A DNA stretch of 64,000 bases from the NCBI RefSeq assembly GCF_001425835.1, contig NZ_LMDP01000001.1, forward strand, positions 63,476-127,475, in the 5' to 3' direction. Both the position numbers and the translations under genes were made by a program. The notes below the pieces were generated by a model, which was not told where the DNA came from, ran no database searches, and saw only the letters and a program-made list of their open reading frames with translations. Of this stretch, positions 23,674 to 26,435 are shown one piece after another (within the stretch, counting starts at the first letter, position 1; every line of letters begins with the position of its first letter). The DNA is from Afipia sp. Root123D2 (GTDB lineage Bacteria > Pseudomonadota > Alphaproteobacteria > Rhizobiales > Xanthobacteraceae).

Positions 23674-24792
23674 TCAGGTCCGGCGCGGCGCGGCCTTCTC
23701 GGGGATGGTGTTGGTCTCGACGTCGACGGTGTCGAGAAATTCCCGCACCGTGAATACCTGGCCGATATTGACAGGCACATAGCCCGGCAGATCGGCGACG
23801 GCGTTGTGGAATTCGTCGCCCTTCATGACATCGAGCACGCGCTGCATCGCCTCGGTCTCGAGGAACGAGCGGCGACAGACGAAAAAATAATCCTCGGTCA
23901 GCAGACGAACGAAATCGAGCCCGAACAGTCGTGCCGCGGCCTCGACGCCGAAGGCGACATCGGCCATGTCGCTTGCGACATAGGCCGCGACGGCGGCATG
24001 GGTAAACTCGATCCGCTGCGCACCGTTGATTTTGCCCTCCTCGATGTTGCTGGCACCGAGTAATTGATTGAACAACTGGCGCGTGCCTGAATCGGGATCG
24101 CGGTTGACGAAGCGCGCCTTGCACTCGACCAGCTCCTTCAGCGACGTGATGCCGAGCGGATTGCCGGGCTTCACCATCAGTCCCATCTCGCGGGTCACGA
24201 AGCTGATCACGCGATGCTCGCGCAGGTCGAGCCATTCCTTGCAGTCGGTCACGGCCTCATGGCGCAGCTTGCCGCGCGGCAGATGAACGCCGGACAGGTC
24301 GCAGGCGTCCTGCGCCAGCGAGATCAGGGAATTCTGGTTGGAGACATAGCGCAGATCGACGCCGATGCCGGGTGTGCGGTCGAGCAATTCGCGCAGCTTG
24401 GGCACCGCGAAACCGTGGCTGGCGTGAACGCGGATCACGGATGGATGCTGATGCAGGAACGGTTTGATCTCGGTGACGAGTTCCTGTGACAGGTTCTGGA
24501 GCTGCGGGCCGAGACGCGCTTCGAGGCGCTGGCCGGCCCAGACCAGTTTTTCACCAAAGGCGGTGAGCGTTGTGCCCTTGCCGCGATGACGCTCGACCAG
24601 CGGCACGCCAAAAAAGTCCGACCACTGCTCGATCAGATTCCACACGTGCCGATAGGACAGGTGGGCGTGATCGGCCGCGCTGGTGAGTTTTCCGGTTTTC
24701 CGGATCTCATTGAGAATGCCGAGCATGACGATGGCGGTCTGCGGACTGCCATCCTTATGGAAACGCCAGATGGTCTCGATTTCAATATGCAT
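23674..24792 (-). CDS. ModE-like HTH regulator with periplasmic-binding-protein-like domain
   Basis: Protein of 372 residues. Residues about 1-95 form a ModE/LysR-type winged helix (GILNEIRKTGKLTSAADHAHLSYRHVWNLIEQW, then FGVPLVERHRGKGTTLTAFGEKL). Residues about 110-350 resemble a type II periplasmic-binding-protein fold used as a sensor (RVHASHGFAVPKLRELL, FVNRDPDSGTRQLFNQLL, DMADVAFGVEAAA). Relatives respond to oxyanions such as molybdate or to small ligands. The gene is divergent from an aldehyde dehydrogenase gene, with an 18-bp palindrome between the starts, so it likely controls that gene. The ligand is not determined. Confidence 0.85.
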   Translation of the reverse strand: MHIEIETIWRFHKDGSPQTAIVMLGILNEIRKTGKLTSAADHAHLSYRHVWNLIEQWSDFFGVPLVERHRGKGTTLTAFGEKLVWAGQRLEARLGPQLQNLSQELVTEIKPFLHQHPSVIRVHASHGFAVPKLRELLDRTPGIGVDLRYVSNQNSLISLAQDACDLSGVHLPRGKLRHEAVTDCKEWLDLREHRVISFVTREMGLMVKPGNPLGITSLKELVECKARFVNRDPDSGTRQLFNQLLGASNIEEGKINGAQRIEFTHAAVAAYVASDMADVAFGVEAAARLFGLDFVRLLTEDYFFVCRRSFLETEAMQRVLDVMKGDEFHNAVADLPGYVPVNIGQVFTVREFLDTVDVETNTIPEKAAPRRT

Positions 24793-24804
24793 CGGGCACC
24801 ATAT

Positions 24805-24822
24805 TATGAAATTGATTTCATA
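24805..24822. promoter_or_regulatory. 18-bp palindromic operator between regulator and aldehyde dehydrogenase
   Basis: TATGAAAT-TG-ATTTCATA is a perfect inverted repeat in an AT-rich island, 12 bp upstream of the regulator start and 81 bp before the dehydrogenase start. Position and symmetry fit the binding site of the adjacent ModE-like protein. The sequence is not the classical ModE box, so specificity is inferred only from location. Confidence 0.6.
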
Positions 24823-24903
24823 TTAGAGGCGGTTTATCTCACATCTTTTCATATTTACTCTGGCATATTCAATACCCATTTTAGGATGAGATGCGGAGGA
24901 AAT

Positions 24904-26391
24904 ATGATGTCAATTGCATATGACGATGACCAAACCACATCCGTCCCGGCCGTTGTCGAGCACAAGCTGCTGCTGATCGACGGACGCCACGTCGAGCCTG
25001 CGTCCGGGCGCTTCTTCAAGACCCTGAACCCGGCGACCGGCGAGGTGATCGCCACCGTCGCGGAAGGCGACGAGGTCGACGTTGATCGCGCCGTCGCCGC
25101 GGCACGCCGCGCCTTCGAGGGACCGTGGCGGACGATGCGCGCCGCCGAGCGCGGCCACATCCTGTTCAGGCTTGCCGAATTGATGAAGCAGCACGCCGAT
25201 GAAATCGCCGACCTGGAGAGCCGCGACGCCGGCAAGCCGATCGCCGGTGTGCTGCGGCAGGATCTTCCCGCCGCTATCGACACGCTGACCTATTACGCCG
25301 GATGGGCCGACAAGATTCACGGCGAGGTGGTGTCCACCCGCAGCGACGCGCTGACCTATACGATGCGCGAGCCGGTCGGTGTCGTGGGTGCCATCGTGCC
25401 GTGGAATTTCCCGCTGATGATCGGGATGTGGAAACTCGCGCCGGCGCTCGCCTGCGGCTGTACCATTGTCATGAAGCCTGCCGAACTCACGTCGCTGTCG
25501 GCGCTGCTGATCGGCGAACTGGCGCTCGAGGCCGGATTGCCACCGGGCGTGCTCAACATCGTCACCGGTCCGGGTCGCGTCGTCGGCGACGCGATGGTCA
25601 ATCACCCGGACATCGACAAGATCACCTTCACCGGCTCGCCCGGGGTGGGGCGCGGAATCATGCGCGGCGCCGCCGGCAACTTCAAACGCGTGTCGCTGGA
25701 GCTTGGCGGCAAGTCGGCCAACGTGATTTTCGACGATGCCGATCTCGATGCCGCGACCAAGGCCGCGGCTTCCGGCATCTTTTTCAACGCCGGCCAGGTC
25801 TGTTCGGCGGGGTCGCGCGTGCTCGCGCACGAGAAGGTCTATGACGAAGTGGTCGAACGGCTGACCGCGCGCGCGAAGTCGATTCGCATGGGCGATCCGG
25901 CAGATCGCGCCACCGCGCTCGGTCCGGTGATTTCCGAGAAGCAGATGAAGAGCATTCTCGACTATGTCGATATCGGCCGGAACGAAGGCGCGACGCTGAC
26001 TACTGGTGGCAAGCGCATCGGCGAGCGCGGCTACTTCATCAGCCCCGCGGTGTTCGCCAACGTCAAACACGAGATGCGGATTTCGCAGGAGGAGATCTTC
26101 GGCCCCGTCGTTAGCGTCATCAAGTTCAAGGATGAAGCGGACGCGCTGCGGATCGCCAACGGCACGGCGTACAGCCTCGCCGCCGGCGTCTGGAGCCGCG
26201 ACATCGGCCGTGTCCAGCGTTTCGCCAGGAAGGTTCGTGCCGGCACGGTTTGGATCAACACTTACGGCTACACCGATGTGCGGTTGCCGTGGGGCGGTGA
26301 GCGCGATTCAGGTCTGGGCCGTGAACACGGCACCGCCGCGATCGAGAATTTCACCGAGCCGAAAGCGGTGTGGATGAATCTGAACGTCTGA
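24904..26391 (+). CDS. NAD(P)-dependent aldehyde dehydrogenase
   Basis: Protein of 495 residues from the ATG at 24904, set by GGAGGA at 24895-24900. It shows the full ALDH pattern: VPWNFPLMIGMWKLAPAL, the FTGSPGVGRGI nucleotide loop, LELGGKSAN with the general-base Glu, and FNAGQVCSAGSRVL with the catalytic Cys. The C-terminal PWGGERDSGLGREHG is also typical. It oxidises an aldehyde to a carboxylate with NAD(P)+. Sequence features are closest to broad-range or betaine/phenylacetaldehyde-type enzymes, so no substrate is claimed. A palindrome and a divergent ModE-like regulator upstream suggest inducible control. The stop lies inside a tandem repeat. Confidence 0.92.
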   Translation: MMSIAYDDDQTTSVPAVVEHKLLLIDGRHVEPASGRFFKTLNPATGEVIATVAEGDEVDVDRAVAAARRAFEGPWRTMRAAERGHILFRLAELMKQHADEIADLESRDAGKPIAGVLRQDLPAAIDTLTYYAGWADKIHGEVVSTRSDALTYTMREPVGVVGAIVPWNFPLMIGMWKLAPALACGCTIVMKPAELTSLSALLIGELALEAGLPPGVLNIVTGPGRVVGDAMVNHPDIDKITFTGSPGVGRGIMRGAAGNFKRVSLELGGKSANVIFDDADLDAATKAAASGIFFNAGQVCSAGSRVLAHEKVYDEVVERLTARAKSIRMGDPADRATALGPVISEKQMKSILDYVDIGRNEGATLTTGGKRIGERGYFISPAVFANVKHEMRISQEEIFGPVVSVIKFKDEADALRIANGTAYSLAAGVWSRDIGRVQRFARKVRAGTVWINTYGYTDVRLPWGGERDSGLGREHGTAAIENFTEPKAVWMNLNV

Positions 26392-26435
26392 GCCAGAACG
26401 TCTGAGCCAGAACGTCTGAGCCAGAACGTCTGAGC
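26382..26435 (+). repeat. 14-bp tandem repeat spanning the aldehyde dehydrogenase stop codon
   Basis: The unit GAACGTCTGAGCCA occurs at 26382, 26396 and 26410, with a 12-base partial copy at 26424. The first copy contains the last codons and the TGA stop; later copies lie downstream of it. The copies are identical, which implies recent slippage or a sequencing/assembly artefact. Confidence 0.92.

Follow-up and report, generated by a model that had tools for sequence, protein, structure and literature searches.

A predicted two-operator switch between an FdsR-type regulator and a divergent aldehyde dehydrogenase gene in Afipia

Introduction

The locus considered here raises the question of what an 18-bp palindrome does between a regulator gene and a divergently oriented aldehyde dehydrogenase (ALDH) gene, and of what signal the regulator responds to. 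In a first-pass annotation of the 64,000-nucleotide stretch of DNA that was analysed (the window), the locus had been read as a self-contained switch in which an unknown small ligand controls the oxidation of an aldehyde. The comparison that turned out to matter most is FdsR of Cupriavidus necator, which is reportedly the regulator of the fdsGBACD formate dehydrogenase operon, is said to have been introduced in a 1999 paper with "dual control" in its title, and which we take to be encoded divergently from that operon. Our analysis suggests that the window quite probably holds an autoregulated divergent switch, in which a regulator of the FdsR type controls a metal-free ALDH through two operators, O1 and O2, with a small anion as effector. 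A literature search found no paper on an operator of the form TATG-N10-CATA, nor on the pairing of such a regulator with an ALDH.

Results

The palindrome is one of a pair

The palindrome seen in the first-pass annotation is real: O1 reads TATGAAAT-TG-ATTTCATA, both 8-bp arms are exact, and as the central TG is not self-complementary, 16 of the 18 positions are symmetric. It also lies, as had been stated, in an AT-rich island, with a GC fraction of 0.44 around O1 and of about 0.57-0.70 in the flanks. When the window was searched with the O1 pattern at up to three mismatches, three matches were obtained (24805-24822 on both strands, and 24903-24920), compared with 0.02 expected from shuffles. 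A search for the same 18-mer elsewhere in the genome had been suggested, and the arm pattern TATGAAATNNATTTCATA occurs exactly only once in the whole 4.8-Mb genome, with five further places at three mismatches, one of which is again 24903-24920. The palindrome thus stands, and the view of the operator as one 18-mer does not, as there is a pair of dyads, O1 and O2, with a half-site, TCATATTT, between them (Table 1). The third dyad of the same form was absent from the other 21 loci of the genus alignment, which spans only part of 24786-24803. No sigma-70-like promoter was found by a scan between the regulator and the ALDH gene, and repression by promoter overlap is therefore only a proposal.

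Table 1. Coordinates of the features discussed, in window positions.
Feature	Position	Strand	Remarks
Regulator gene, 372 aa, ModE-type HTH + PBP_like	23674..24792	-	ORF, translation, domain searches
PBP_like effector domain, residues 135-324	23821..24390	-	Pfam; hhalign to TupA profile
Anion-loop codons, R231-D-P-D-S-G-T-R238	24079..24102	-	aligned with TupA R118...T124
HTH, residues 24-81	24550..24723	-	S46 Y47 R48 ... W51 motif kept through the family
Third TATG-N10-CATA	24786..24803		over regulator start codon; significance uncertain
Operator O1 (predicted), TATG-N10-CATA	24805..24822		12 bp upstream of regulator start codon
Half-site TCATATTT between O1 and O2	24849..24856		intact in 22/22 genus-level loci
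Operator O2 (predicted), TATG-N10-CATA	24903..24920		overlaps ALDH start codon (ATG at 24904)
NAD(P)-dependent-type ALDH, 495 aa, PF00171	24904..26391	+	predicted controlled gene

The regulator and its class

The domain make-up of the regulator (P0001) is established by Pfam, in which PBP_like (PF12727) matched with 188 bits (E 1.2e-55) and HTH_1 (PF00126) passed its cut-off with 38.2 bits (E 1.4e-9), and in which TOBE was not among the matches up to E 1. A probable ModE-type HTH is coupled to a binding-protein-like domain in place of TOBE domains, as had been read from the letters. The TIGR00637 ModE domain model reached 42.6 bits on residues 24-105, below its cut-off of 98.5, and ModE itself (PDB 1b9m) matched with E 0.019. 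LysR_substrate reached 22.4 bits, under the cut-off of 28, so that the domain pair of LysR-type regulators is not present. In seven other family members, PF12727 passed in all seven and HTH_1 fell below the Pfam cut-off in four. Y47, R48 and W51 are found in 53 of the 53 family proteins that were grouped, a grouping that left out six "other" rows of 59 proteins.

Several known regulators invite comparison. TunR, reportedly described by Kazakov in 2013, is said to be a one-component regulator that is likewise linked to tungstate and molybdate, with a Xer-recombinase-type DNA-binding domain and TOBE; neither a Xer-type domain nor TOBE was among the Pfam matches of P0001 up to E 1. ModE probably shares the type of HTH with the window regulator and has an operator of the same 18-bp TAT...ATA geometry, its consensus being given as TATATA-N6-TATATA and, for E. 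coli, as ATCGNTATATA-N6-TATATANCGAT, which contains TATA-N10-TATA (PMC545781). The window regulator differs from ModE in that no TOBE was found, in that its operator has TATG/CATA and not TATA/TATA, and in that its partner is not a molybdate transporter. TaoR, described as the regulator of a tungsten aldehyde oxidoreductase, has a PBP-like effector domain as well, combined with HTH_17 (PMC11980592), for which P0001 gave no Pfam match, so that the architecture of P0001 is not that of TaoR. A protein of that architecture is separate here (P0004); in the same genome, a regulator with HTH_17 and PBP_like lies beside modABC-like genes (L037 5053-6006, G000:C5). PF12727 is also reported for MoeA of Desulfovibrio (PMC10102598).

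The best match is with FdsR. P0001 has an HTH_1/ModE-type HTH followed by PF12727, and dyads lie between the regulator and its partner gene, as in the FdsR type. In G564 and G631, which belong to a single genus, a family member is encoded directly divergent from fdsGBA-fdhD, one of them with an exact TATG-N10-CATA at the start codon and the other with two sites at 7 of 8. We take this genus to be Cupriavidus, because DNA taken from G631's second large contig aligns in colinear order with Cupriavidus campinensis and with further Cupriavidus genomes (coverage 62%, identity 79%), and from the synteny in these two Cupriavidus-like genomes we infer that FdsR of C. necator belongs to the family of the window regulator. 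By that synteny, the two share the domain family and the divergent position relative to the controlled operon. They differ in the target, which is a molybdenum/tungsten formate dehydrogenase for FdsR and, by prediction, a metal-free ALDH for the window member, and in substitutions near the pocket of the latter. As the partner is an ALDH and not a divergent fdsGBA, the window regulator is a variant and not an FdsR orthologue.

The wider family and the origin of the ALDH-linked branch

Gene neighbourhoods were compared in more distant genomes. Among 398 sampled Pseudomonadota genomes, 32 have a regulator match at E 1e-30 or better. At the 30 loci compared, the neighbour is formate dehydrogenase in 18 (fdsGB or a diverged homologue in 17, with an MFS gene in between in the other), TupB or TupA in six, and ALDH in five, the window's own included; no such neighbour was found in one. 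Three relatives from Afipia and a related genus, 36-37% identical, are encoded close to fdsGBA and have a dyad upstream; in two of them a LysR-type ORF separates the regulator from fdsG. In a plasmid collection, a Halomonas member (46%) is divergent from fdsGBA-fdhD, as identified from translations, an Aquabacterium member (40%) from an FdhF/YdeP oxidoreductase and fdhD, and a Microvirga member (31%) from a Tup-like transporter. A Diaphorobacter member (29%) belongs to a molybdopterin/formate dehydrogenase cluster in which sites precede both a TupA-like gene and the formate dehydrogenase, and a Methylobacterium bullatum member (30%) has unannotated neighbours and no site.

In a tree of 59 proteins, the ALDH-linked proteins and those of ALDH-less loci (see below) form a group nested among the formate dehydrogenase-linked proteins, with a regulator of G615 beside it; the key forks are weak (90/52, 93/73), and the root was placed at midpoint. 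G615, a 1.9-Mb genome related at the level of the phylum only, carries fdsGBA-REG1-ALDH-REG2, each regulator being preceded by two exact sites (L207 818-11150), and its ALDH is 64% identical to the window ALDH over the 315 residues compared. This arrangement looks like a step between the formate dehydrogenase-linked and the ALDH-linked state, and a regulator of formate dehydrogenase was probably duplicated and then co-opted by an adjacent ALDH gene, giving rise to the ALDH clade.

The effector pocket and the candidate signals

Aligning the PBP_like domain by hhalign to a profile of six TupA proteins gave a probability of 62.4 and E 7.3e-5, and paired R231, T237 and H170 of the regulator with R118, T124 and H59 of TupA, the TupA numbering being carried onto the genome's own TupA by hand count. 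These TupA residues have been named for tungstate binding (PMC5517513). In the grouped family proteins, R231, G236 and T237 are invariant (53 of 53, including all 21 that are ALDH-linked), and H170 is 98% conserved. The RxxxSGT loop is general to other anion-binding proteins as well. The ALDH clade differs from the rest near the pocket, with N152 for S, S155 and S158 for A, D232 for Q and D234 for G, and the effector may therefore have changed. An AlphaFold2 model of the regulator, built with 31 sequences, had a mean pLDDT of 63.1, a pTM of 0.52 and values under 50 over much of the presumed pocket.

No equivalog cut-off was reached among the 25 NCBIfam matches listed for the ALDH, and the solved structures that resemble it most come from ALDHs of various kinds. 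A 14-bp unit, GAACGTCTGAGCCA, is repeated over the ALDH stop codon (26382-26435; 3.9 copies, 100% identity). The other neighbours in the window are, by eye, housekeeping-like genes with no metal link.

FdsR with its promoter was described as formate-inducible, by 4.5-fold and with a Km of 130 uM, and as active in E. coli, and in one set-up of the same biosensor study the formate promoter was without significant induction (PMC7057948). The small ligand of the first-pass annotation is kept, and the range of candidates for it can be narrowed, because relatives lie beside formate dehydrogenase or tungstate transport genes, FdsR, linked by synteny, is reported to be formate-inducible, and the pocket loop matches that of TupA. 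The effector is probably a small anion, either formate (or a carboxylate akin to it) or tungstate/molybdate. We lean to formate or a relative, since FdsR is reportedly formate-inducible and the ALDH clade lies among formate dehydrogenase-linked members.

Alternatively, the locus could be a molybdate/tungstate isoenzyme switch, in which the PBP_like domain reads the metal and the metal-free ALDH is made when the metal is scarce, replacing a molybdenum or tungsten aldehyde or formate oxidoreductase. The pocket residues aligned with R118, T124 and H59 of TupA (PMC5517513), the family members beside tupA/tupB and molybdenum-cofactor genes, the occurrence of PF12727 in the Desulfovibrio MoeA (PMC10102598) and of a PBP-like domain in TaoR (PMC11980592), and the presence of tupABC, modABC (both named by eye) and the TaoR-architecture protein in the same genome speak for this possibility, which we nevertheless regard with some doubt, as the reported response of FdsR to formate (PMC7057948) is in keeping with a metabolite being sensed by the closest, formate dehydrogenase-linked relatives, the window neighbours show no metal link, and residues near the pocket are substituted in the ALDH clade. 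Its more specific form, a Mo/W-sensing regulator that was rewired to a metal-independent ALDH, so that tungstate/molybdate supply would choose between metal-dependent and metal-free oxidation through an operator in the enzyme's start codon, appears unlikely.

Equally unlikely is an ordinary substrate induction of the LysR type, with the aldehyde or acid of the ALDH as effector and the likeness to formate and tungstate regulators reflecting ancestry only. The divergent layout of regulator and enzyme, the weak LysR_substrate match and the changed residues near the pocket would agree with it, but the 188 bits of PBP_like, the LysR_substrate score below its cut-off, and the invariance of R231, G236 and T237 in all 21 ALDH-linked proteins argue against it.

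The sites in the genome and in the regulator family

TATG-N10-CATA occurs only eight times in the whole genome, compared with 12 in a reversed control, and since three of the eight lie inside the regulator-ALDH intergenic region, the switch is considered a local one. Across 29 genomes of the genus, the counts per genome (1-17) were of the same order as those of the reversed control (2-16). The site as a genome-wide regulon element was thus rejected, given the eight versus 12 in the G000 genome.

One exact site, at G000:C1:411096-411113 (L036 11097-11114), precedes an MFS-formate dehydrogenase operon (MFS and a fused fdsGB-fdsA) and has a small sulfur-carrier-like ORF on its other side; the cluster also includes tupABC, moeA-like genes, mobA, fdhD and mobB, all named by eye. 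Among eight other MFS loci at 78-86% identity, an exact site is present in one (L131), with different-looking surroundings, and eight more loci at 55-60% have no exact site; a search at 7 of 8 placed the gene in six of nine loci and left out the three closest. The site at C1:411096 is a possible target in trans. The description of the switch as self-contained may thus be too strong, because this site lies upstream of the MFS-formate dehydrogenase operon, though it is unconserved; the local character of the switch, with three of the eight genomic sites here and a divergent ALDH, is retained.

Outside the set of closely related loci described below, the 250 bp upstream contain an exact site in 27 of 47 family members, against a mean of 0.34 and a maximum of 2 in dinucleotide shuffles, and a site matching at 7 or all 8 positions in 37 of 47 (shuffles: 5.88, at most 12), in a set that contains some near relatives. 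An in-gene control of the 47 members gave none, neither exact nor at 7 of 8 or better, and ten members lack an upstream site at 7 of 8 or better. In 14 of the 47, with start codons chosen by script, the site (7 of 8 or better) begins exactly at -17 and ends on the A of the regulator ATG, and this register over the regulator's own start codon points to autoregulation. A leaderless or nearly leaderless transcript would be possible in these 14 members.

As far as can be judged from such comparisons, the TATG-N10-CATA operator tracks the regulator family in distant genomes and differing contexts. Short AT-rich dyads are recognised by many proteins, and the binding of the regulator to the sites is predicted from sequence, so the palindromes could belong to a different, global DNA-binding protein; this is very improbable, as the genome count is not above that of the reversed control and the sites travel with the regulator family.

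Conservation of the two-operator arrangement

Conservation in orthologous intergenic regions was the test that the first-pass annotation had named for its palindrome. Of 29 genus genomes that were scanned, 22 have a regulator orthologue, one of them cut by a contig end; seven lack it, several of these genomes being incomplete and one holding a 64-residue fragment. The ALDH is the divergent neighbour in all 22 loci, O2 and the TCATATTT half-site are intact in all 22 intergenic regions, and the O1 dyad is exact in 21, with one base off in the remaining one; the loss of conservation that would have refuted the proposal was not seen. No equally close regulator orthologue was found among 32 further family and order genomes. 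In 297 order genomes, eight regulator matches at E 1e-40 or better were found, including the window's own, and the ALDH adjoins the regulator in seven of seven loci, two of which (L167, L171) have only one exact site. In three loci from other families (L168-L170), the site near the ALDH lies upstream of the ribosome-binding site and not over the start codon.

A larger named set comprises the best 80 of 147 loci from a genome scan of Afipia, Bradyrhizobium and related assemblies. The ALDH is the divergent neighbour in 73 of these best 80 of 147, which establishes the gene pairing and agrees with the first proposal of the ALDH as the switch partner. Within 200 bp of the regulator, at least two exact sites are present in 74 of the best 80, one in five, and none in one, which has just 52 bp of upstream DNA. 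The spacing from start to start is 97-100 bp in 67 of the best 80, and 85, 88, 89, 96, 102 and 110 bp in others, in addition to one three-site locus. Between O1 and O2, TCATATT is found in 70 of the 74 two-site loci and TCATATTT in 66. In a comparison that took in loci selected for two exact sites, O1 is represented by 61 distinct 18-mers in the 74 loci, with the outer TATG and CATA fixed, and the conserved unit is therefore TATG-N10-CATA and not the full 18-mer. The interior of O2 is nearly fixed across the two-site loci.

Six of the best 80 loci have no ALDH next door, and for one of them (L044) the upstream DNA available is just 322 bp long. Two sites are retained in every one of the six, with a spacing of 98 bp in four and of 96 and 89 bp in the other two. 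No close ALDH was found elsewhere in the six assemblies (best 42-49%), all of which are metagenomic and possibly incomplete, and one has a broken ALDH remnant beside the regulator. The two operators persist without the ALDH, and part of their role must therefore be autoregulation or another target. In four of the ALDH-less loci (L042, L044, L045, L047), extra half-site-like repeats lie between the operators, for example TTATGAAG...CTTCAATA and GAATATGAAATGCTGG. A second ModE-type HTH is encoded directly downstream of the regulator at L098 7084-7533, a 149-aa ORF that resembles an HTH-only ModE-like protein, and in similar places of nine other Bradyrhizobium loci.

The position of O2 within a coding sequence and its nearly fixed interior would also be expected if O2 simply followed from the conserved MMSIAYD at the ALDH N-terminus and O1 were a chance AT-rich palindrome. 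This can hardly be maintained and is contradicted by the codon usage, with GCA at ALDH codon 5 in 72 of 72 genes (related and thus not independent, one of 73 having been dropped as it lacks an ATG at the aligned start) versus 313 of 4728 other Ala codons of the same genes, by the second site kept in the six ALDH-less loci, by the site upstream of the ALDH gene in L168-L170, and by the variety of O1. O2 is under constraint at the DNA level, as these patterns in the sequences indicate, and is not a coding by-product. The paired sites and their conservation are thereby established, and the two-operator arrangement is, by the sequence comparisons, real and conserved, an FdsR-type variant with a new kind of predicted target.

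Discussion

In the model that we prefer, an FdsR-type regulator governs its own gene and the divergent ALDH gene, and a dimer of the regulator would bind each TATG-N10-CATA dyad. A dimer at O1, 12 bp ahead of the regulator start codon, would shut down the regulator gene, and a dimer at O2, over the ALDH start codon and about 9.4 helical turns from O1, would block ALDH expression. The two dimers would probably touch across the intervening DNA. A small anion in the PBP_like pocket would then rearrange the complex, possibly onto the central half-site, and ALDH expression would be switched on. Formate, or a small carboxylate close to it, would be the most likely effector, and tungstate/molybdate the main alternative. 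We infer repression as the sign of regulation from the positions of the sites and from the "dual control" in the title of the FdsR paper; binding by the regulator, looping and the effector are likewise predictions. Helical phasing of the sites is modestly supported: spacings compared with a 10.5-bp repeat gave a Rayleigh p of about 0.007 (n=19, with 14 near copies counted as one), and spacings such as 50, 53 and 104 in the family are off this repeat.

A regulator with an unassigned "substrate-binding domain" in many Bradyrhizobium and Afipia genomes is now tied to a family associated with formate dehydrogenase and tungstate uptake. The family gains an operator, TATG-N10-CATA, with the layout of a ModE box, which makes regulon prediction possible in many genomes, and the question of the effector, formate versus tungstate/molybdate, can be put to a straightforward binding test. 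The ALDH-linked branch would illustrate the recruitment of a one-carbon/metal regulator to a new enzyme.
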